IMG/VR virus record: IMGVR_UViG_3300022752_005969
Coordinates: 1-20,957 of that record
DNA: 20,957 nt
Source of the DNA: a virus
Direction: 5' to 3' (one strand)
In this document: one piece after another, positions 1,391 through 16,301 of the stretch
Numbering within the stretch: the first letter of the stretch is position 1
Layout of the letters: each line of letters begins with the position of its first letter
Program-made: the position numbers and the translations under genes
Notes under the pieces: model-generated
Databases searched by the model: none
What the model was told of the DNA's origin: nothing
Seen by the model: the letters and a program-made list of their open reading frames with translations, nothing else

Positions 1391-2128
1391 TTATTTAATT
1401 ACTGTGGACCAAGGATATTTCTCACCATATTTTTCTTTGGATTTAGCATTGCCCTGAGTAAAAAATTCAGGTTTAACTGAACCCTCATTGCCATCTAATC
1501 TATAATTTAAAGTATACTTACCAGAACAACCATAATTCTTATGATTCATTTGATTTTTAAGAATCATATAAAATCTTCTATCTGCACCCCAACCAAAATC
1601 CCAAATATGCCCCACCATTCGAAGGAAGCTGTTAGTAAAACAATAAGAGCTTGAATCCACAAGATGTTCTGTACTTTTTACCCACACCGGCCATCTTCCC
1701 AAAGATTCACAGTTATCATTACATATAAATTCTTTATTTTTATCGTAAATTTTTCTTAAACTATGCACCCAATCATAATTGTATTGCTCAATTTCTTTTA
1801 CTAAACTTGTCACATGATTCGGTTCATACCAATTATCTTGATCTAAAAACATAATATAATCATGAGGACAAAGATGACTAAATGCTGCCATAACTCTGTG
1901 TCCATAATATCCACCGCCCCCAGTATTAAAAGGAATAGTTGATACTATTACATTTTTTTCTTGTATAGATGAAATGGAAATAGTTTTCTTTGCATCGTTT
2001 TCAAATTTTGTCCCATCAATAACTATAAGATGTTCGAGTTCAGAATAGTCTTGTTTTTGTACTGATTCAATTGCATCCTTCAATACGTCTGAACCAGTTG
2101 TCGGGGTAATAACTAATACTTTCTTCAT
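1391..2128 (-). CDS. GT2-type glycosyltransferase
   Basis: The 245-residue protein begins MKKVLVITPTTG and continues with an alternating beta-alpha pattern (LEHLIVIDGT at about 32-40) and FLDQDNW at 94-100. This is the nucleotide-sugar binding layout of GT-A family 2 enzymes, with D96-x-D98 as the metal-binding DxD. The C-terminal part has WDFGWGADRRFY. It should transfer a sugar from an NDP-sugar in the cytoplasm; acceptor and sugar cannot be read. The length is short but normal for a single GT-A domain. The start overlaps the upstream methyltransferase stop as ATGA, so it is the last protein gene of the left sugar operon. Confidence 0.8.
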   Translation of the reverse strand: MKKVLVITPTTGSDVLKDAIESVQKQDYSELEHLIVIDGTKFENDAKKTISISSIQEKNVIVSTIPFNTGGGGYYGHRVMAAFSHLCPHDYIMFLDQDNWYEPNHVTSLVKEIEQYNYDWVHSLRKIYDKNKEFICNDNCESLGRWPVWVKSTEHLVDSSSYCFTNSFLRMVGHIWDFGWGADRRFYMILKNQMNHKNYGCSGKYTLNYRLDGNEGSVKPEFFTQGNAKSKEKYGEKYPWSTVIK

Positions 2129-2776: not shown

Positions 2777-3556
2777 TTACCCCTCAAAGTATTTGGATAC
2801 AGATCTACTTTTGATTAATTCTAAAATTTCTTGATCATTTTGTTGATTTAAATAAGGTGCAAATAGTGCTCGGTCTCTATTCGAAATATCTTTTCTTGGT
2901 TCAGTTAAATAATAAATGTTTAAACTTTTTCTATAGACATTTTTCGGGGATTTAAGTTTTTCGGGTACACCATGCCATGAATTTTGTGTGGTGTCAAAAA
3001 GAACAGCTCGATTGAAAGTACAATCTATAGTTGCTTTGCATTCTTTAGGTAAATTTTTTTCATTGTCATGTGACCACAATTCTAGTTTGCCGCCATAATC
3101 AGATTTCCAATCTTTAGTCAAGTAAATTATTAAGTTAGCTCTACGTTCTAATTTAAGTTTTGGATGTATTGAATAATCCAAATGAATGTTTAATTTTCCT
3201 CCGCTGGGAGTAACATGCCAGCCACCACCATGCAGTCCGAAATCTGGAATTATATTGGGAACATCTATAATTTCTTCAATTATATTAATAAATTCCGTAC
3301 TATATAAAAAAGTAAAAACTTGATAAGTTTCTGGGGGAAATAAATTCCAATTAGTAGTTAACTTTTTATTTTCTAATGGATTGTTATAGATATTCCAAAT
3401 CTCATCTTTATTGAAATCTGGGAATTGCTCTGATAAAATATTCGCTAAATCCAAATTAAAAAAATTATCTACTATAACATGTTTAAATGGCTCGGCAGTG
3501 TTATACTTTAATTTCAAATTTGATATATCTAAATCATTTAATATTTTTTCTTTCAT
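2777..3556 (-). CDS. 2OG-Fe(II) oxygenase
   Basis: The 259-residue protein carries the facial triad of the 2-oxoglutarate dioxygenases: H125-L-D127 in NIHLDYS, the distal His195 in NSWHGVPEK, and Arg209 in YRKSLNIYYL to bind 2-oxoglutarate. The jelly-roll core runs from about 100 to 220. It would hydroxylate a substrate using O2, Fe(II) and 2-oxoglutarate. Such enzymes are common in aquatic T4-like phages; here the place within a sugar operon suggests a glycan or nucleotide-sugar substrate, though a protein or nucleic-acid target is possible. The start overlaps the end of the upstream gene by 23 bases, and four bases separate its stop from the ATG of the methyltransferase. Confidence 0.82.
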   Translation of the reverse strand: MKEKILNDLDISNLKLKYNTAEPFKHVIVDNFFNLDLANILSEQFPDFNKDEIWNIYNNPLENKKLTTNWNLFPPETYQVFTFLYSTEFINIIEEIIDVPNIIPDFGLHGGGWHVTPSGGKLNIHLDYSIHPKLKLERRANLIIYLTKDWKSDYGGKLELWSHDNEKNLPKECKATIDCTFNRAVLFDTTQNSWHGVPEKLKSPKNVYRKSLNIYYLTEPRKDISNRDRALFAPYLNQQNDQEILELIKSRSVSKYFEG

Positions 3557-4262
3557 ATTCTTTGACCAAAGTTACATGATGTTCACCATACATGGATTTA
3601 TAATTGGAATAACTTGCTGGAAATTTTTTAACTTTTAATGATTTATCTATGTAACAATACAATGAAAATAATCTTTCCACAATAAAACAAAAATTAGGAA
3701 TTGCAATTCCATTGTAGGGTTGTTTATCCTCAAACATACATTTCTTAATTTCCAAATCCTCTTTAGAAATTTCTATAACCTTATCTAAAAATAATATGTA
3801 GTTTTCCCAGAAAATAGAGTTGCCAATAAAATAATTACAAGTAGCGAAATCATCTGGTTTATATTCTATATCTTCTGCTTTCATATTTATACCCAACTTA
3901 GGAAAAAGCAAATTACAACAACTCAATATACCCGGACGCCAACGTTCACCCTGGATAAAAATATTTTTATAATTTAAGGCAATATCTAAAAAAGGATCAA
4001 TATGATAAACGTCATACCCGGGATTATTTAGTATCCAAGACTTAAATTCTTTAGAATCTAAATGAGTCTTTTCAAACCATCTCCAAGATAATAATCCCCA
4101 ATAAGCATCAGTATTTCTATGTTTCAAATACAATGATTTCCACAAAGGATATTCTCGCAATTCAGGATTCTTATTCTTTATATTATTAAAGGGTATAAAA
4201 TTTACATCTAATTTTTCTTTTTGAGATTCTTCATAGTAGGTTTGATATATGAATAAATTCAC
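3534..4262 (-). CDS. Unrecognised protein of sugar operon (glycosyltransferase-like?)
   Basis: The 242-residue protein starts at GTG 4262, overlapping the SDR stop as GTGA, with AAGGA nine bases upstream; no ATG is nearby. It begins with a short strand, MNLFIYQTYY, and contains YWGLLSWRWFEKT (54-66) and NPGYDVYHIDPF (80-91), patterns I associate with hypothetical proteins in bacterial and viral polysaccharide clusters. C115 and C116 are adjacent. No DxD, Rossmann or HExxH motif is clear. The GT-like start and the neighbours make a glycosyltransferase-related role possible, but I do not assign one. Confidence 0.6.
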   Translation of the reverse strand: MNLFIYQTYYEESQKEKLDVNFIPFNNIKNKNPELREYPLWKSLYLKHRNTDAYWGLLSWRWFEKTHLDSKEFKSWILNNPGYDVYHIDPFLDIALNYKNIFIQGERWRPGILSCCNLLFPKLGINMKAEDIEYKPDDFATCNYFIGNSIFWENYILFLDKVIEISKEDLEIKKCMFEDKQPYNGIAIPNFCFIVERLFSLYCYIDKSLKVKKFPASYSNYKSMYGEHHVTLVKEYERKNIK

Positions 4263-5086
4263 CTAAGAATATCCTTTATCATGTTTATATTGTCATACTG
4301 TGGAGTATATCCCAAACTTTTTAATTTATTAGTTTTCATCCACATGGATAATACTTGAACTTTTTTATGAAAATCTGGTTGTTCGATATAATTAAAGTTT
4401 GATTCACTTTTAAAAATATCTTTTGCAATATCTAGATAATCTTTGAAAAAATAGGGAACACCGTTCCCTATATTGTATATCGTATTTACGTCACCTTTTT
4501 CTATAATTAATTTAATGGCTTTAGCTACATCTGAAACATGTATAAAATCTCTATAAAACTTGCCACCCTCATATAAATTGATATCTTTATTTTGTTTTAT
4601 TTCGTTTACAAGATATTGCAAAGCATTCTTTTTAGACGAAGCTTTCATATCACCATAACCTGTTACATTTGCTAATCGTAATATTCTATATTTAAGATTA
4701 AAAGTTTCACAAAAACTTACTAATAAGTCTTCTGCTGCTTTTTTAGTAATAGAATAAAATCCTTTGGGATTACAAACACTTTCTTCAGTTGCAGGCATTT
4801 CGGTAAATCCATAGACAAACCAAGAACTAATAAAGTTGAAAACAATATCTTTATCCTTACACTGATCTAAAACTTTCATCATGGTAATAAGATTTGTTTC
4901 AATATCTATAAATGAATTAACTTTTATATTATAGTTAGTAACTGTAGAAATAAGATATACTATTTCCTTACAAGATTCATCTACTCTATAATCTATTTTT
5001 TCGTTTACAACACAAAATTCTTTATTTTGTTTCACAAATTCTGAACCAATAAATCCTGAACCACCGAACACCTGCAATTTCACCAT
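4259..5086 (-). CDS. Extended SDR: NAD-dependent sugar epimerase/dehydratase
   Basis: The 275-residue protein has the NAD-binding GGSGFIG at 8-14, Ser87/Ser88 in ISSWFVYG, and Y111-x3-K115 in YSITKK: the catalytic Ser, Tyr and Lys of extended short-chain dehydrogenases that act on NDP-sugars. The later RDFIHVSDVAKAI and YNIGNG motifs are also typical. It follows the E1-like dehydratase with a seven-base overlap. In the known 3,6-dideoxyhexose pathways the E1 product is reduced by an SDR (for example CDP-abequose or CDP-paratose synthase), so that role is a reasonable inference; a 4-epimerase is the alternative. Confidence 0.85.
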   Translation of the reverse strand: MVKLQVFGGSGFIGSEFVKQNKEFCVVNEKIDYRVDESCKEIVYLISTVTNYNIKVNSFIDIETNLITMMKVLDQCKDKDIVFNFISSWFVYGFTEMPATEESVCNPKGFYSITKKAAEDLLVSFCETFNLKYRILRLANVTGYGDMKASSKKNALQYLVNEIKQNKDINLYEGGKFYRDFIHVSDVAKAIKLIIEKGDVNTIYNIGNGVPYFFKDYLDIAKDIFKSESNFNYIEQPDFHKKVQVLSMWMKTNKLKSLGYTPQYDNINMIKDILR

Positions 5087-6357
5087 AATTTCAAAACCTT
5101 TTCTATATAATTAAATATTTTATCGTTATAAAAAGGAGGGCAACCAAGGAAAAATATATGGGATAATGCTTTATTTGATAAAGGATATTTAGTATAATCT
5201 CCTAGATGTTTAAATCCTGGATGAAGTAAAATATTTCCAGCAAAATATGGTCTAGTTTGAATTCTGTTGGTTTCTAAAAATTGTACTATAAATTCTTTTT
5301 GTTCTTGGGATTCACAGATAATGGGTACTCCAAACCAAGATGGATCTGCTTTATCTAACACTTTAGCAGTGGACACACCTAGATATTTAATCATAAGATT
5401 TTCTATAATTTTTTTATGTAATCTTCTTTTAGTTTCGATCTCATCAATTTTTTCCATCTGTGCTATACCTATAGCACCTTGTAAATCTAGGGGTTTTAGA
5501 TTGTATCCAGCATATCGAAAAATATACTTATGATCAATTATACCATCATAGTTTTCTAACCAATTACTGAATCTTTTACCGCAAGTTCCACATGGTAACA
5601 AATTATTAGCACCCACACAATAACAATCTCTGCCCCACCAGGACATTGCCCTTGCAGTTTTGATAAATTCTTCATCATTGGAGGAAATCATTCCTCCTTC
5701 GCCGGTGGATATATGATGAGCAGGATAAAATGAGCAACTCCAAGCATAATATAATTCATTTAAGTACTTATCCCCCCATTTGGTTCCTAAAGAATCGCAA
5801 TTGTCTCCTATAAGTAAGATATTATGCTTATTACATAAATCTATCAAAACGTCCATATCAGGTGGATTCGATAATACGGGCGAGACAAATATCGCTTTAG
5901 TTTTATCTGTTATAACATTTTCTATTAATCGTACGTCAAAATTAAGTGTCTCAAATTCAATATCTACAAAAATAGGTTTTAAGTTTGTTTGAACAATGGG
6001 TGCAATAGTAGTAGCAAATCCTACCGGAGAAACTATAATCTCATCGCCGTCCTTCCACTTAAAATATTCTTTTAAACTAGCCAACATTATTAGGTTAGCT
6101 GAGCTACCTGAATTGACCATATGGGAATAGCCTGCATTAAATTTTTTAGCAAACTGATTTTGAAATTCTAATACCTTTTCGCCAGATGCAATCCAACTTC
6201 CCGTCAAAAAAGCATCTAATGCTAATTCTATTTCTCGATTATCCCAGTATTGCCCTGAGTACAAAACATAGGTTTTTTCAGGATCAAAATTATCATAATT
6301 TTGAATATATTTTGGATTAGCTATTGCGCTAATATTTTTAATTAAATCATTTATCAT
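5080..6357 (-). CDS. rfbH: E1/RfbH-type NDP-4-keto-6-deoxyhexose 3-dehydratase
   Basis: The 425-residue protein has the DegT/DnrJ/EryC1 aminotransferase fold, but the PLP lysine is replaced: FYPAHHISTGEGG at 210-222 has His214 where aminotransferases have Lys. This exchange marks the PMP-dependent dehydratase E1 (AscC, RfbH) and ColD. Four cysteines match the E1 [2Fe-2S] pattern that I recall as C-X57-C-X1-C-X7-C: here C187, C245, C247 and C256 (X8 at the last step), with C259 also near. These point to C3 deoxygenation of an NDP-4-keto-6-deoxyhexose. E1 needs an electron donor (E3); none is visible here. A 40-codon gene overlaps its start as ATGA, and AAGG lies ahead of the ATG. Confidence 0.9.
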   Translation of the reverse strand: MINDLIKNISAIANPKYIQNYDNFDPEKTYVLYSGQYWDNREIELALDAFLTGSWIASGEKVLEFQNQFAKKFNAGYSHMVNSGSSANLIMLASLKEYFKWKDGDEIIVSPVGFATTIAPIVQTNLKPIFVDIEFETLNFDVRLIENVITDKTKAIFVSPVLSNPPDMDVLIDLCNKHNILLIGDNCDSLGTKWGDKYLNELYYAWSCSFYPAHHISTGEGGMISSNDEEFIKTARAMSWWGRDCYCVGANNLLPCGTCGKRFSNWLENYDGIIDHKYIFRYAGYNLKPLDLQGAIGIAQMEKIDEIETKRRLHKKIIENLMIKYLGVSTAKVLDKADPSWFGVPIICESQEQKEFIVQFLETNRIQTRPYFAGNILLHPGFKHLGDYTKYPLSNKALSHIFFLGCPPFYNDKIFNYIEKVLKLW

Positions 6358-6476
6358 TTCCCGCCTTGTCCCCTATATTTTTTGTGAGAACGTTTACGCT
6401 GTTTATTCATTGTAGAAGTTTTACTACCATTTTGCCTTGTTCTTTTTACTACTTTTTCATGTTTTTTATCGGCCAT
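6354..6476 (-). CDS. Small basic protein, 40 residues
   Basis: ATG 6476 is preceded by AAAGGAG seven bases upstream, one of the best ribosome binding sites in the window. The product is very rich in Lys and Arg, starts MADKKHEKVVKRTRQNG and ends KYRGQGGK. Its stop overlaps the dehydratase start as ATGA, and its start overlaps the end of the upstream gene by 11 bases, so it sits tightly in the operon. A nucleic-acid-binding role is possible from the charge. No family is recognised. Confidence 0.7.
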   Translation of the reverse strand: MADKKHEKVVKRTRQNGSKTSTMNKQRKRSHKKYRGQGGK

Positions 6477-11215: not shown

Positions 11216-11495
11216 TTTCTAAGTCATGTACATAAAGCATTATTAAAGCATAGTGTAACACCTTTAGTATGTCCTTCCTATTTCTTCCTTCTTTCTTTCC
11301 GTATCTTTGGGCATACTTAATTATATTACCTACCGTATGTCCAATACCATGTCCATTTGCAATAATAAACTCAGTAGTTTGTATTTTTCCTTGGGCATAG
11401 TGTTGTGTGTATGTTGTGTCAATATAATTCTTTAACTGAATTAATAAATTTTCCTCATCATACTTGTATATGGGTTTACTTGGTATACAATTCAT
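11199..11495 (-). CDS. DUF3310-like protein
   Basis: The 98-residue protein contains HGIGHTVGNIIKYAQRYGKK (49-68), followed by RKDILKVLHYALIMLYVH. This is the pattern of DUF3310 proteins of phages: a helix with GNxIKYxxRxGKKxG and a second helix of a Leu/Tyr-rich type. Their function is unknown, although they often occur near nucleotide-metabolism genes; the assignment rests on recall of the motif. It overlaps both neighbours (20 bases with the upstream fusion gene, 17 with the downstream glycosyltransferase), so it is translated with them. Its presence in a sugar operon is unexpected. Confidence 0.72.
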   Translation of the reverse strand: MNCIPSKPIYKYDEENLLIQLKNYIDTTYTQHYAQGKIQTTEFIIANGHGIGHTVGNIIKYAQRYGKKEGRNRKDILKVLHYALIMLYVHDLENEEFK

Positions 11496-12501
11496 TCAAA
11501 TTATCTCCATCACGTTTTACATTATAACTTAGTGCACTAGGATATCTATTGGTGGGGTGGTAATCATTTATTAATATTCTCCTGGCATTATGCAAATCCA
11601 TAATCAATTTACAATTCTTACTAAAACCAAGTTGTTGTAGCATCATCGTAGTTACTTCCTGCGCAGATTGTGGTCTTGCTGTAGTGAAAATTACTTGGCA
11701 TCCCCTATCATATTCTGCTTTAATAATTTTGTAATTATTTTCCAATACCTCATACTCACCATCGTATGGTCTATGCATAGATTTAACTAATGTGCCATCT
11801 ATATCGCAAAAAATTGTAGGTTTATTATTATAAAAATTCCAATCTTCAAGTGTCCCCACATCCACAAAATCTCGAATATCAATATTTCTAAATACTTTAT
11901 TATGTTTTTGTATCATAATACTAATAATATGAGACACAAATAATTCTTTATTAGAAGAATCTTTTAACTCATTGAATGCGGTAATATATTCTATGGATGA
12001 ACTAAACTTATAAGCACCTATACAAAAATGATTACTAACTATTTCTTTTTCAACTATGTCGTAAATTATGTCCTGCGAATTTACAGTAACAAAAGACTTA
12101 GATGACAATTTTCTTAAATTATCATGATATTTTATATTAGTAGTATATACTACATTACCTGGTTCATAAACAACATTAAAAAAATTATCACAATCTTTTA
12201 CAAGAAATTCAATATCATTATCTTTCTCAGACAAAATGTTATAAACTGTTTCTGCCGGACCACTAGTTGGTTTATCCAAAACTACAATATCTACATCACC
12301 AAGTTCTCTATTCAATACTTTTATGGCATCATATTGTACAGCATGCTGCTGTAAAATACCTATTGATATTTTATACTTTCCAAAAAAAGGTTCCAGTGCC
12401 TTTTTAATCATCAATTCGCCTGCATAGTTATATAGTAAATACTTGGGTCTTGTGCCCGGAAAGCGTGTTGATAGACCAGCAGCAGGTACTATAATTTCCA
12501 T
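11476..12501 (-). CDS. Nucleotidyltransferase-HAD phosphatase fusion
   Basis: Residues 1 to about 220 form a sugar-nucleotidyltransferase domain: AAGLSTRFPGTRPK (7-20) is the nucleotide-binding signature, D103-x-D105 lies in VKDCDNFF, and DVGTLEDW (214-221) closes the domain. From about 228 a HAD phosphatase domain follows: FCDIDGTLV (D233, D235), then TTARPQ (273-278), and INDY near 313. The protein should activate a phosphorylated precursor with an NTP and dephosphorylate a related one. It follows the kinase-like gene with a 13-base overlap. The sugar or alcohol is unknown. Confidence 0.87.
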   Translation of the reverse strand: MEIIVPAAGLSTRFPGTRPKYLLYNYAGELMIKKALEPFFGKYKISIGILQQHAVQYDAIKVLNRELGDVDIVVLDKPTSGPAETVYNILSEKDNDIEFLVKDCDNFFNVVYEPGNVVYTTNIKYHDNLRKLSSKSFVTVNSQDIIYDIVEKEIVSNHFCIGAYKFSSSIEYITAFNELKDSSNKELFVSHIISIMIQKHNKVFRNIDIRDFVDVGTLEDWNFYNNKPTIFCDIDGTLVKSMHRPYDGEYEVLENNYKIIKAEYDRGCQVIFTTARPQSAQEVTTMMLQQLGFSKNCKLIMDLHNARRILINDYHPTNRYPSALSYNVKRDGDNLNELYTK

Positions 12502-13232
12502 AATTTTTCTATTTGATTAAGTAAAAATTGTTTTGTTTTTTGATCTTTTTGTGCATGTTTTAAAATTCTAATAAGCATAATAATAGTCAAAGTATTATTA
12601 ATTTCGCCACAGTCTTTTTCTATAAAATTTTTTAAAATACTTAATTTTGCATCAAGATTAATATTACAGTTTCGTATAAACCATTTACAGGTTAAATCTT
12701 GATTTAATTTTGCTAGATCAAAGTGCCAAGAATCATATTCTATAGTTGCAGGATCTATTATTATAAATCCTTTTTCCTTATTGAACAATATATTTTCTAA
12801 AGTAAAATCACCAATATACTCAGATTGGTTAAATAATTTGGGAAGGCGATTTATCAATTCATCATTTGTAAAACTAAAAATAGAATCAACCCAACCTAAT
12901 TTATTAAAGTAAATATTAGTATAATCTTTAACAACTTCTTCTGTTTGCTTTAGCTTTTTTATATTTTCTACTATAAATTTTGCCAAAAATTTGGGATTAT
13001 TTTTTAATAGATAGTTTTTAATATCTAAACCTGGTATATATTCAATATCAAGTATATCATTATCATAATTTAGTATCTTTACCACTGAGAAATCAAGATG
13101 ATGTAATCTACATAATCTTTCATAATTTCGTACTACATTTCCTTGTTTACGAACAAAATACTCATTGTTTATTTGCATTAAGTAAATTTTACTACCGGAA
13201 TATCCTTTAAATTCCTTTACAATTTTTTCCAT
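12489..13232 (-). CDS. Aminoglycoside/choline-kinase-fold phosphotransferase
   Basis: The 247-residue protein has an N-lobe (FVRKQ, where Lys29 could be the ATP-binding lysine), a hinge around IEYIPG, and the catalytic region IGDFTLENILF (140-150) with D142 and N147, followed by IIIDPA (D160). This is the layout of the APH/ChoK kinase family. The usual His of HGD is replaced by Ile140, which occurs in some family members. The gene lies directly ahead of a nucleotidyltransferase-phosphatase gene and shares the TAATG overlap with the gene before it, so it may phosphorylate the precursor that the fusion enzyme activates. The substrate is unknown. Confidence 0.78.
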   Translation of the reverse strand: MEKIVKEFKGYSGSKIYLMQINNEYFVRKQGNVVRNYERLCRLHHLDFSVVKILNYDNDILDIEYIPGLDIKNYLLKNNPKFLAKFIVENIKKLKQTEEVVKDYTNIYFNKLGWVDSIFSFTNDELINRLPKLFNQSEYIGDFTLENILFNKEKGFIIIDPATIEYDSWHFDLAKLNQDLTCKWFIRNCNINLDAKLSILKNFIEKDCGEINNTLTIIMLIRILKHAQKDQKTKQFLLNQIEKLWKL

Positions 13233-13936
13233 TAATCTACATGTAATTGTCCATTGGGTGCAACGTTGCCTTCCAGTCCCAACGTATCAATTTCTTGAAC
13301 ATATTTTTTATCTACAAATTTATACAATGCGTGCTCAAAATCTATAGATGGATTAATAACTGTTCTTATCACACTATCCAAAATAGAATGAGTATACTTT
13401 AATAAAGAGGGACATAGTGAAAATAATCTGGTAATGTATAGTGCTGGTATTTCTTTATTATCTTTCCAAGTATCATGCCGCTTAAATACATATTTTCCAA
13501 AATAATTAAACTTAGATATATCAAAATTATCGTTAAGTTTATATCTTCCAGATATTTTAAATATTCTATTTGAAGATGATACTAGTTTCATGGCATTTGG
13601 ATATGATAACATCAATTCTATCATTTTCATAAGTAAATAGGCATCACCTGCAGATTTCAATCCTGCATCATTAAATTGCCTGGCATTTTGATCACTGCTA
13701 ATATTTGCCACGAAATCACATTTTTCAGATAACAGTGCATAAATTTTATCATCAAGAGGCCTTGAAGAATTATCAGCAATTAAAATTAAACTATTGGAGC
13801 ATCTATCTCTAATAGAATCAATTGTTTCATAGGTTTGATTTAATCTTTCCTGGGGATTATATATTCCATGGTTGGTATTAATACAACTAGTTATAAGAAA
13901 TAAATTATTTTTGGGGGGACCAATTAGCATAATCAT
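13232..13936 (-). CDS. Glycosyltransferase-like protein, tentative
   Basis: The 234-residue protein begins with a short strand and FLITSCIN, then YNPQERLNQTYETIDSIRDRC, and has LILIADNSS at 50-58, which looks like the second strand of a GT-A fold. IFKISGRYKLND at 125-136 is a motif I have seen in hypothetical proteins of polysaccharide clusters. A DxD is not clear. Two in-frame ATGs are possible (13936 and 13930); GAG before the second may favour it. It overlaps the upstream gene by up to 32 bases and the kinase gene by one (TAATG). Confidence 0.62.
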   Translation of the reverse strand: MIMLIGPPKNNLFLITSCINTNHGIYNPQERLNQTYETIDSIRDRCSNSLILIADNSSRPLDDKIYALLSEKCDFVANISSDQNARQFNDAGLKSAGDAYLLMKMIELMLSYPNAMKLVSSSNRIFKISGRYKLNDNFDISKFNYFGKYVFKRHDTWKDNKEIPALYITRLFSLCPSLLKYTHSILDSVIRTVINPSIDFEHALYKFVDKKYVQEIDTLGLEGNVAPNGQLHVD

Positions 13937-14618: not shown

Positions 14619-15423
14619 CAATTTTTACCTTTAAATCTGGTACTCTATCATACTGATGGACAATATAAAAAAGATCACCGGTTGAAGTATATACCTCGCC
14701 TTCTTTATAAACAGGAATATTTTCTAATAGATGCGGTTTAAAGATTTCTAACTTGGTTGGATCGCCGGTTGTCCCCAATTGACACGCCCAACCATCTTCT
14801 GATTTGGCTTGCTTAGTAATCGTTGACCAAGGTTCAGTATGCATCATAATATTATAGGTTGCTTGATCTACAATAGGAATTGGTCTATTAATAGATGCCA
14901 AAAATAGATGAAGCATTAAATCTTTTATATATTTATGTTCACCTGCCAATGTTCCTACATTGAAAATTTCCTTTTCGTAAAATTCGTTGTGAATATATTT
15001 ACCAAAAGCACTCATTAGATTATTATTGCCCCAAGATTCGTGTAAGTATTGTATACTTTCTGATGCACATACAATTTTTTTATTATCTAAATTTTCTTCT
15101 AACCAATCAATAGGATTCTGTTGAAATATAACATCTTTAACATCTGTAGATATCACATAACGATATTCATTATTTTTGAGATAATGATACATATGAATGA
15201 ATCTTTCTACGTGAACAGGGGTATTACTTTTATAATCTAATGTCTTGTTAACAGGCACAACAGTAATGCCATGTTCTTCCAGAGTTTTCACTGTTTCCAC
15301 AGAACATTCCATTACAACCAAAACAACATCACCAGAAAATGATGTGTTCTTTATAGATTTTGCCCAATTTTTTAGTTGATTCCATTCATATCTGGTTGAA
15401 GTTCCAATCAACAAATCTTTCAT
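14605..15423 (-). CDS. GT-A-type glycosyltransferase with DxxD motif
   Basis: The 272-residue protein starts LLIGTSTRYEWNQLKNWAKS, with FSGDVVLVVMECS at about 29-41, and contains YVISTDVKDVIFQQNP at 89-104. A strand ending in TDVKDV(I/V)FQxxP is known from family members with a nucleotide-diphospho-sugar transferase fold, and D94 and D97 would take the role of the DxD. FNVGTLAGEHKYI and VDQATYN further on also fit, since many GT-A enzymes have an N-x-G and a DQ pair in the acceptor half. Starts and stops overlap the neighbours (ATGA with the GT10 gene). Sugar and acceptor unknown. Confidence 0.75.
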   Translation of the reverse strand: MKDLLIGTSTRYEWNQLKNWAKSIKNTSFSGDVVLVVMECSVETVKTLEEHGITVVPVNKTLDYKSNTPVHVERFIHMYHYLKNNEYRYVISTDVKDVIFQQNPIDWLEENLDNKKIVCASESIQYLHESWGNNNLMSAFGKYIHNEFYEKEIFNVGTLAGEHKYIKDLMLHLFLASINRPIPIVDQATYNIMMHTEPWSTITKQAKSEDGWACQLGTTGDPTKLEIFKPHLLENIPVYKEGEVYTSTGDLFYIVHQYDRVPDLKVKIDAKY

Positions 15424-16301
15424 CTAGCATCCCTTTTTGCAACTACTATGGCATCAAACCAATTTAAAAAATTATTAATGATAATGCAATCGTTAGGTAA
15501 ATTGTACATAAATTTTGGAGAATTTACTATATTCGTATATAGTGTATCATTATTATCTATTTCTATAATTTTCTCTATTAGAGCTTCTTCAGATGGGAAA
15601 TCAAAGTAATTAATATAGGATAGAGGATTAAAATCTTTAACGATTGTCGGTGATCCCCAGTAAATAGGAATAGTATTTCCATAAAAACCATGTAGAATTT
15701 TTTCTGTTACATACCCCGGATACGAAGAGTTTTCAAAACATAAACTAAACTTATGTTTAGAAAAGTAATCTATTTTAGAAGAAACATCTGGTAAATTAAT
15801 ATTAGTATTATTTAAAAGTAATCCTGCGCTATTTACCTTTTTGTATTCGGTGTTTAATTTTCTAAAAAAATTGTTTCTTATTGGGTTTCCACCATTACGA
15901 TGAACAAAGGCACAAAAGTCTGTTTTACTCCGTACATCTGTTTTGTGAAGATGGCACAAATAATCAAATGGTCGATTGGTTACCTTGTGTACAGTTTCAA
16001 TCGCCCACATATCCAGCACATAAAGAGGTAATCTATAATGCCATGGATTAAAATTATGATCAAAACTTATAGCATAATGGCAATCGTAGTTTTCAGGTCT
16101 TCTATTTTCCCCTGTATAGAAAATTTTGGTAATATCATTTTTAGATATTAAATTATTTTGTGTACCAAAATTTTCATCACAAAAGATTAAAAACTCAGCA
16201 TCATTACTTATTTCAATATCATAACGTAATTCTAGAGCATCTACAAAAAATTGTATACAAGAATCCCAAGTATCAGTAAACTGCAACTTAAGTTTTCTCA
16301 T
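15420..16301 (-). CDS. GT10 fucosyltransferase-like protein
   Basis: The 293-residue protein has the C-terminal GT10 donor-binding block FSLCFENSSYPGYVTEKI at 185-202, continuing HGFYGNTIPIYWGSP, which is the best conserved part of alpha-1,3/1,4-fucosyltransferases. FYTGENRRPENY (61-72) and CAFVHRN (130-136) match other GT10 patterns. Such enzymes transfer fucose from GDP-fucose; a different deoxy sugar would be possible here, as the genome encodes a deoxy-sugar enzyme. No GDP-fucose synthesis gene is in the window. Both ends overlap neighbours as ATGA. No membrane tail is evident. Confidence 0.87.
   Translation of the reverse strand: MRKLKLQFTDTWDSCIQFFVDALELRYDIEISNDAEFLIFCDENFGTQNNLISKNDITKIFYTGENRRPENYDCHYAISFDHNFNPWHYRLPLYVLDMWAIETVHKVTNRPFDYLCHLHKTDVRSKTDFCAFVHRNGGNPIRNNFFRKLNTEYKKVNSAGLLLNNTNINLPDVSSKIDYFSKHKFSLCFENSSYPGYVTEKILHGFYGNTIPIYWGSPTIVKDFNPLSYINYFDFPSEEALIEKIIEIDNNDTLYTNIVNSPKFMYNLPNDCIIINNFLNWFDAIVVAKRDAR

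Follow-up and report, generated by a model that had tools for sequence, protein, structure and literature searches.

3,6-Dideoxyhexoses are O-antigen sugars in several Gram-negative bacteria, according to an excerpt of PMC8987622, which also states that SpnQ, an enzyme of the spinosyn pathway, works with general ferredoxin or flavodoxin reductase pairs. The described enzyme closest to the gene considered here is E1 (AscC) of Yersinia pseudotuberculosis, or RfbH, a cytidine diphosphate (CDP)-4-keto-6-deoxyglucose 3-dehydrase; ColD is a guanosine diphosphate (GDP)-4-keto-6-deoxymannose 3-dehydratase. Here we analyse an E1-type gene in a 20,957-base fragment, IMG/VR virus record IMGVR_UViG_3300022752_005969 (the window). 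Judged by sequence, tree and predicted fold, its product is very probably a lysine-free E1-type 3-dehydratase with an iron-sulfur (Fe-S) cluster. We propose, with a probability of roughly 0.5, that this enzyme and an overlapping short-chain dehydrogenase/reductase (SDR) would make a deoxythymidine diphosphate (dTDP)-3,6-dideoxyhexose with electrons from the host, and that a glycan would be altered with it during infection. The case for the enzyme class is strong; the nucleotide, the product and the purpose we infer.

Enzyme class, active site and relationships

The reading frame initially annotated at 5080-6357 on the minus strand is open and encodes 425 residues. Its product matched the Pfam family DegT/DnrJ/EryC1/StrS (PF01041) with 231.6 bits, against a gathering cut-off of 19.8. 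The best NCBIfam model was RfbH (NF011936; E 2.3e-100), whose equivalog cut-off of 423 bits was missed at 336.4 bits; four cellular genomes of the same branch likewise scored below that cut-off, the highest at 374.6 bits. Among solved relatives, phmmer ranked E1 first (3bcx, E 5.1e-68), followed by the E1 H220K mutant 3bb8 and then ColD (2gms, E 3e-49). In the same search His214 aligned with E1 H220, and the solved mutant shows a lysine in that column, in keeping with the initial annotation, which had placed this histidine where a lysine would hold pyridoxal 5'-phosphate (PLP).

Related loci, given L-numbers, were retrieved solely through the E1-type gene and comprise 80 IMG/VR loci, named phage loci and 28 cellular loci. 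In an alignment of 43 rows (the window, 24 of the 80 IMG/VR loci and 18 of the 28 cellular loci), histidine in place of the PLP lysine is invariant (43/43), as are four of the enzyme's nine cysteines, C187, C245, C247 and C259; the remaining five are cysteine in 26 to 37 of the 43. H214, H215 and the same four cysteines are identical in all 81 phage sequences compared (81/81; window plus 80 IMG/VR). We take the cluster ligands of E1 to be C193, C251, C253 and C261. C187, C245 and C247, three of the ligands initially annotated, correspond to the first three of these, and C259 (GTCGKRF) aligns with E1 C261 (NTCKKRF). The fourth ligand originally named, C256, is cysteine in 79/81 phage sequences; it is ruled out by that alignment and by its distribution among 19 cellular relatives of the branch, which have cysteine at C259 in 19/19 and at C256 in only 4/19. 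Likewise, the X57 and X1 spacings stand and X8 gives way to X11: the window's branch has C-X57-C-X1-C-X11-C rather than the C-X57-C-X1-C-X7-C of E1/RfbH, and the X7 form (D-N-T-C) is present in E1 and seven actinobacterial relatives. Because the protein departs from RfbH both in score and in this spacing, we do not file it as RfbH. By analogy with E1 and SpnQ, as described in the excerpt of PMC8987622, C187, C245, C247 and C259 most likely hold a cluster.

An IQ-TREE phylogeny of 57 rows comprised the window, loci from IMG/VR (25 of the 80), named phages (3) and cells (22 of the 28), incomplete E1 and ColD chains from the PDB, two ColD-like proteins of cyanophages and two lysine aminotransferases. 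The window falls in a 26-row phage clade (100/99), which is nested inside a branch of 45 rows with the X11 spacing (97/94; 42 of them 100/100) that also contains cyanobacteria, Bdellovibrionota, Nitrospirota, Bacteroidota and others. The sister of this X11 branch is E1 (3bcx) with its actinobacterial relatives (joint clade of 52 rows, 97/92), and by this placement the X11 spacing distinguishes a branch that is sister to E1. The E1/X11 clade excludes ColD and the ColD-like proteins of cyanophages; the lysine aminotransferases are more distant still. Long branches come together at these outer nodes and the two PDB rows are incomplete, but support for the branch that holds the window is good. The window thus did not group with lysine-containing aminotransferases, an outcome named beforehand as contrary to the E1-type assignment. 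Membership of the ColD group is ruled out by the presence of the cluster cysteines and by the separate branch, and membership of the sugar aminotransferases (WecE type) by the absence of the Schiff-base lysine and the placement apart.

An AlphaFold model of the protein had a predicted local distance difference test score (pLDDT) of 90 and a predicted template modelling score of 0.90. With this predicted model, Foldseek ranked E1 first (3bcx, E 2.2e-35, template modelling score 0.83), and VIA-align gave Z 49.2 for 3bb8 (397 residues, root-mean-square deviation 3.4) and Z 49.0 for 3bcx (400 residues, 3.6), compared with Z 46.3 for GDP-perosamine synthase and 44.6 for ColD. In the top 50 VIA-align matches, alignments that begin at residue 1 are confined to the two E1 rows. 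Against viral models, Foldseek placed remote PLP enzymes at the top (best E 3.1e-22, identity 21%). The class originally assigned is therefore supported, E1 being first by sequence and by both fold comparisons and the sister in the tree. Purifying selection on the gene is strong, with dN 0.039, dS 1.31 and dN/dS about 0.03 between L002 and L005 (synonymous sites against the window are saturated or almost so).

Distribution, partner gene and proposed pathway

Phage carriage of such enzymes is already known and common, contrary to the view of the initial annotation, which had called it unusual. A relative (E ≤ 1e-3) is encoded by 519 of 526 pattern-matched IMG/VR stretches; the 80 kept as loci are 61-80% identical. 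Named phages contribute 82 matching records, each below 60% identity and with other branches among them; the Synechococcus phages RN05-S, S-H68, S-B05, RB11-B and S-B43 reach 52%, and the S-H68 copy is annotated as CDP-4-dehydro-6-deoxy-D-glucose 3-dehydratase. Excerpts of two surveys list rfbH among viral genes (PMC10653327, PMC11295528). A short record named 'Salmonella phage' (OR851175.1, 2,570 bases, 35% identity) may be host DNA. In a Woesearchaeota locus (L111:9911-12664, BPGB01000006.1), the E1-type open reading frame (ORF) has an insert of several hundred residues right after the active-site PAHHMS, beside the catalytic histidine; the insert starts with Cys, ends with HN before Ser and is intein-like.

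Given how the loci were fetched, their neighbouring genes count as independent evidence. An orthologue of the window's SDR lies directly downstream of the E1-type gene in 79 of the 80 IMG/VR loci, and the 80th ends 181 bases past the gene. Two of the 28 cellular loci, L108 and L110, yielded no E1-type ORF; among the other 26 the SDR orthologue is directly upstream in 12, that is, in 12/19 with X11 and 0/7 with X7. Marine virus L084 shows this cellular order, and the pair thus holds in both gene orders. Across 32 SDR rows, G11, S87, Y111 and K115 are invariant and G9 and G14 occur in 90% or more, giving a glycine-rich NAD motif, the Ser and Tyr-x-x-x-Lys; selection is again purifying (L002 versus L005: dN 0.075, dS 1.58, dN/dS about 0.05). 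4,6-Dehydratases have an Asp-Glu pair after the catalytic Ser/Thr. The SDR carries SSWFVYG at this position, for which reason we do not regard it as a 4,6-dehydratase, and scores 92.9 of the 365.1 bits needed for TIGR01181. It probably performs the step after the E1-type enzyme; that this step is C4-keto reduction is our guess, made from pathway logic alone.

No E3-like reductase is seen in the window, as initially annotated, which by itself says little for a fragment of this size. We therefore refer to 19 phage records, most of them fragments, consisting of 17 IMG/VR contigs (five of 121-163 kb) and two named phage records, among them the complete 207-kb genome of RN05-S. The ferredoxin-reductase NAD domain PF00175 (E3-like) was found in 0/19 and a plant-type ferredoxin in 1/19 (RN05-S). 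Since the reductase is missing from all 19, host electron carriers appear a better explanation than a gene just beyond the window. RfbG and RfbF (TIGR02622, TIGR02623) each passed the cut-off in 0/19 of these mostly fragmentary records.

A gene resembling RmlB, the dTDP-glucose 4,6-dehydratase (scoring above 200 bits against the L056 gene), overlaps the start of the E1-type gene in 9 of the 80 IMG/VR loci, 75 of the 80 having at least 700 bases upstream. The nine are L043 and L045 (identical), L056, L058 and L059 (identical), L065, L067 and L081 (96%), and L080; the TIGR01181 (RmlB) cut-off is passed in L043, L056, L067 and L080. Elsewhere, RmlB lies 2.3 kb downstream in L014 (387.4 bits), heads the order RmlB-SDR-E1 in L084 (362.0 bits, just under the cut-off of 365.1), precedes the SDR together with RmlC in phage RN05-S (382.5 and 221.6), and in L090 is divergent, with RmlA, from the adjoining SDR-E1 pair (RmlA 388.1, RmlB 441.2). 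The complete chromosome of cyanobacterium L088 has RmlB (380.0 bits) 363 bases upstream of its second X11 copy, on the same strand. RmlA passed the cut-off in 0/31 phage records, L052 reaching 347.5 of 360.65 bits. No other neighbour stands so near or recurs so often as RmlB, which adjoins the E1-type gene in several lineages; on balance this favours dTDP-4-keto-6-deoxyglucose, a common host metabolite, and we rate the odds that the substrate is a dTDP sugar as about even. The L088 genome, that of cyanobacterium HT-58-2, holds its two X11 copies at L133:1402-2730 and L136:1402-2805, with RmlB upstream of one and an SDR-orthologue ORF upstream of the other.

We propose that the window enzyme would be a nucleoside diphosphate (NDP)-4-keto-6-deoxyhexose 3-dehydratase, dependent on pyridoxamine 5'-phosphate (PMP) and a [2Fe-2S] cluster, of a branch sister to E1. 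Following the mechanism of E1 and SpnQ, the 4-keto sugar would form a Schiff base with PMP, His214 would accept a proton as the C3 hydroxyl departs, and the cluster on C187, C245, C247 and C259 would then deliver electrons, completing C3 deoxygenation. Because the phages examined carry no E3, we suggest that ferredoxin or flavodoxin reductases of the host could supply the electrons, as they do in the case of SpnQ. The overlapping SDR would afterwards reduce the keto group at C4. As substrate we consider dTDP-4-keto-6-deoxy-D-glucose likely, supplied by the host or through an RmlB of the phage, and the product would be a dTDP-3,6-dideoxyhexose that phage glycosyltransferases could use to alter a glycan, most likely at the host surface. 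Pelagimyophage genes of such kind have been read as a host-surface change in an excerpt of PMC7029224; glycosylation of the virion or of DNA is a possible alternative use.

More tentatively, aquatic phages and several bacteria may share a two-gene module, or three with RmlB, for dTDP-3,6-dideoxyhexoses, in which a dTDP-accepting branch of Fe-S 3-dehydratases would draw on host electron carriers and serve the phages in rewriting surface glycans. Among the literature matches listed, none is presented as dealing with an E1-SDR or RmlB-E1-SDR module, and we came across no description of such a route to 3,6-dideoxyhexoses. The enzyme type, from bacterial surface sugars, and its carriage by phages were known; what is new, as variants, is the phage-spread X11 branch and the sugar probable for it. 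A phage that supplies a 3,6-dideoxyhexose to infected cells could alter phage receptors or serotype. The module presents a large set of Fe-S 3-dehydratases that have a cluster loop of their own and lack a dedicated reductase beside them, and nucleotide choice and electron supply thereby become directly testable.

Counter-evidence and alternative routes

Several observations weigh against the dTDP pathway proposed above. To our knowledge, no activity has been described for any member of the X11 branch, and the cluster loop of the predicted structure is poorly modelled (blocks 241-280, pLDDT 59-67). The nine loci with an overlapping RmlB form a single lineage of about five distinct members at most, their E1-type proteins being 74-91% identical. 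Of 31 phage records, 7 have RmlB over the cut-off, and none turned up in L002-L007, which are the nearest relatives of the window and all fragments. The SDR orthologue is 3.7 kb from the E1-type gene in Synechococcus phages RN05-S and S-H68 (L082 and L083) and was not found beside it in the 642-kb phage L085, and by fold the SDR is about as close to 4-epimerases (Z 29.8) as to RMD, a 4-keto reductase (29.4). Two cellular loci, L090 and L091, add to this list through the genes of a CDP route. An enzyme of the same class could take CDP-4-keto-6-deoxyglucose from the host and yield a CDP-3,6-dideoxyhexose of the abequose, paratose or ascarylose type; indeed, the nearest named family, RfbH, and the nearest solved enzyme, E1, are both CDP enzymes. 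Across 14 cellular genomes, many of them incomplete (13 with the X11 branch and one with X7, L104), RfbF passed its cut-off in 4/14 and RfbG in 1/14. In L090, RfbG (174047-175087, 448 bits) and RfbF (175123-175884, 355.3 bits) lie about 17 kb downstream of the E1-type gene (155470-156696) on the same contig; no E1-type candidate besides this X11 gene was seen in the genome, where the next RfbH-like score is 136.9 bits, and one E1-type enzyme may serve a CDP route there. RfbF (395.9 bits) is also found 9 kb from the sole E1-type gene of L091, on the same contig. Set against this are the 19 phage records, with neither RfbF nor RfbG over the cut-off, and the recurrence of RmlB as a close neighbour, in L090 as well. 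RfbG falls below its cut-off in 12 of the 13 X11-branch cellular genomes too, which is weak evidence because many of these are incomplete and the X7 genome L104 likewise lacks RfbG over the cut-off. We consider a CDP substrate unlikely, though it deserves to be kept in view.

The remaining alternatives concern the chemistry or the kind of substrate. There might be no net reduction through a cluster, the enzyme instead carrying out a ColD-like dehydration and hydrolysis or a SpnQ-like transamination to a 4-amino sugar, with the cysteines serving a structural role. The finding of a dedicated reductase domain in 0/19 phage records is consistent with this, and SpnQ transaminates without a reductase (PMC8987622, excerpt); however, ColD has no cluster according to the same excerpt, the cyanophage ColD-like proteins that lack the cysteine motif sit outside the X11 branch, and the four cysteines are invariant in 43/43 rows, leaving a non-reducing route improbable. 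Even less probable is that the pair acts on some other activated ring, such as a nucleotide-linked C7 cyclitol from a phage cyclase cassette. A valiolone-synthase-like cyclase is indeed encoded in 18 of the 80 IMG/VR loci, and L013 and L018 have, upstream of the E1-type gene, a classical SDR along with nucleotidyltransferase and kinase-like genes, but BLAST found no such cyclase in 62 of the 80, in the window or in the cellular loci, many of which are short. That the gene is an inactive relic or decoy is scarcely credible in view of its invariant catalytic residues and the low dN/dS of both gene and SDR (about 0.03 and 0.05, L002 versus L005).

Other features and comparison with described systems

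The window encodes a clamp, both clamp loader subunits and a translation repressor of T4 type (PHROGs 223, 168, 225 and 242), and these four matches agree with its initial description as a T4-like phage. Among phage records its clamp loader is closest to the Methylophilales phages Melnitz, at 62.5%, and the host is therefore unsure. The c11 gene, whose relatives stand next to the E1-type gene elsewhere, is displaced in the window beyond the replication genes, away from the E1-type gene. Several further genes near the E1-type gene have no Pfam match. On the minus strand at 11476-13232, a sugar nucleotidyltransferase-like protein and a HAD protein (weak matches) are followed by a Pfam-less protein that looks kinase-like by eye; L035 has a related pair.

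Features of the window, with coordinates as window positions
Feature	Position	Strand	Basis or remark
E1-type (lysine-free, four-cysteine) NDP-4-keto-6-deoxyhexose 3-dehydratase-like protein, 425 aa	5080..6357	-	open ORF, profiles, tree, fold
His214 codon, replaces PLP lysine (= E1 H220)	5716..5718	-	alignment with E1
Cys187 codon, invariant (= E1 C193)	5797..5799	-	alignment
Cys245 codon, invariant (= E1 C251)	5623..5625	-	alignment
Cys247 codon, invariant (= E1 C253)	5617..5619	-	alignment
Cys259 codon, invariant, most likely fourth cluster ligand (= E1 C261)	5581..5583	-	alignment
Cys256 codon, fourth ligand of the initial annotation	5590..5592	-	Cys in 4/19 cellular branch relatives
Short extended SDR, 275 aa, conserved partner, proposed C4-keto reductase	4259..5086	-	start overlaps E1-type gene end by 7 bases
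Protein without Pfam match, next downstream	3534..4262	-	homologues in 29/84 phage loci; members of four clusters at +2 from E1-type gene
2-Oxoglutarate (2OG)-Fe(II) oxygenase-like protein	2777..3556	-	homologues in 24/84 phage loci; two clusters at +3 from E1-type gene
Cluster c11 member	13232..13936	-	homologues in 31/84 phage loci; relatives directly upstream of E1-type gene in 13 other loci
40-codon very basic ORF	6354..6476	-	stop overlaps E1-type start (ATGA); under 60-aa limit of ORF list
GT2-like glycosyltransferase	1391-2128		
GT10 fucosyltransferase-like gene	15420-16301		

Two kinds of related locus carry further sugar genes. The cyclase at L018:7449-8612, with homologues in 18/80 IMG/VR loci, matched PDB 4p53 'Cyclase' (282.8 bits), which we take to be ValA, a 2-epi-5-epi-valiolone synthase, ahead of 5tpr (210.7) and the 3-dehydroquinate synthase 5hvn (129.3); cyclases of this type, with the nucleotidyltransferase, kinase-like gene and SDR, possibly form a phage C7-cyclitol cassette. 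In a Bacteroidia metagenome-assembled genome (L086:3982-8971), a thiamine diphosphate enzyme like acetolactate synthase comes after the E1-type gene, and acetolactate synthases top its solved-structure search; next is a long protein that resembles an SDR fused to a glycosyltransferase. This locus perhaps encodes a branched-sugar pathway.

Among described systems, E1/RfbH has in common with the window enzyme the histidine in place of lysine, four aligned cysteines, the N-terminal extension and the fold. The two differ in sequence (31% identity), in the residues before the last cysteine (X11 in the window enzyme, X7 in E1) and in setting: the window enzyme scores below the RfbH cut-off, is paired with an SDR and probably takes a dTDP sugar, and the 19 phage records, most of them fragments, showed no E3 and neither RfbF nor RfbG over the cut-off. 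ColD is also a lysine-free 3-dehydratase of the DegT fold, but it lacks the cluster motif, belongs to another branch of the tree and serves a GDP-mannose route. Its cyanophage counterparts, in ACG-2014f and S-CAM7, are lysine-free as well and are encoded after a GDP-mannose 4,6-dehydratase and an SDR; these rows of genes (L126:990-4107 and L127:1025-4083; FGHHMTT, with His for Lys and no cluster motif) are annotated piecemeal and likely represent colitose-type cassettes. The enzyme of phage S-H68 belongs, through its twin RN05-S in the tree, to the same branch as the window enzyme at 52% identity and lies in a glycan cluster that also includes genes like RmlB and RmlC; it differs in the motif RGCYC and in the distance of 3.7 kb to the SDR orthologue. 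SpnQ, likened here by description, has a substrate that is a 2,6-dideoxy sugar, and resembles the proposed enzyme in being an Fe-S protein that acts on a dTDP sugar with general ferredoxin or flavodoxin reductases (PMC8987622, excerpt).

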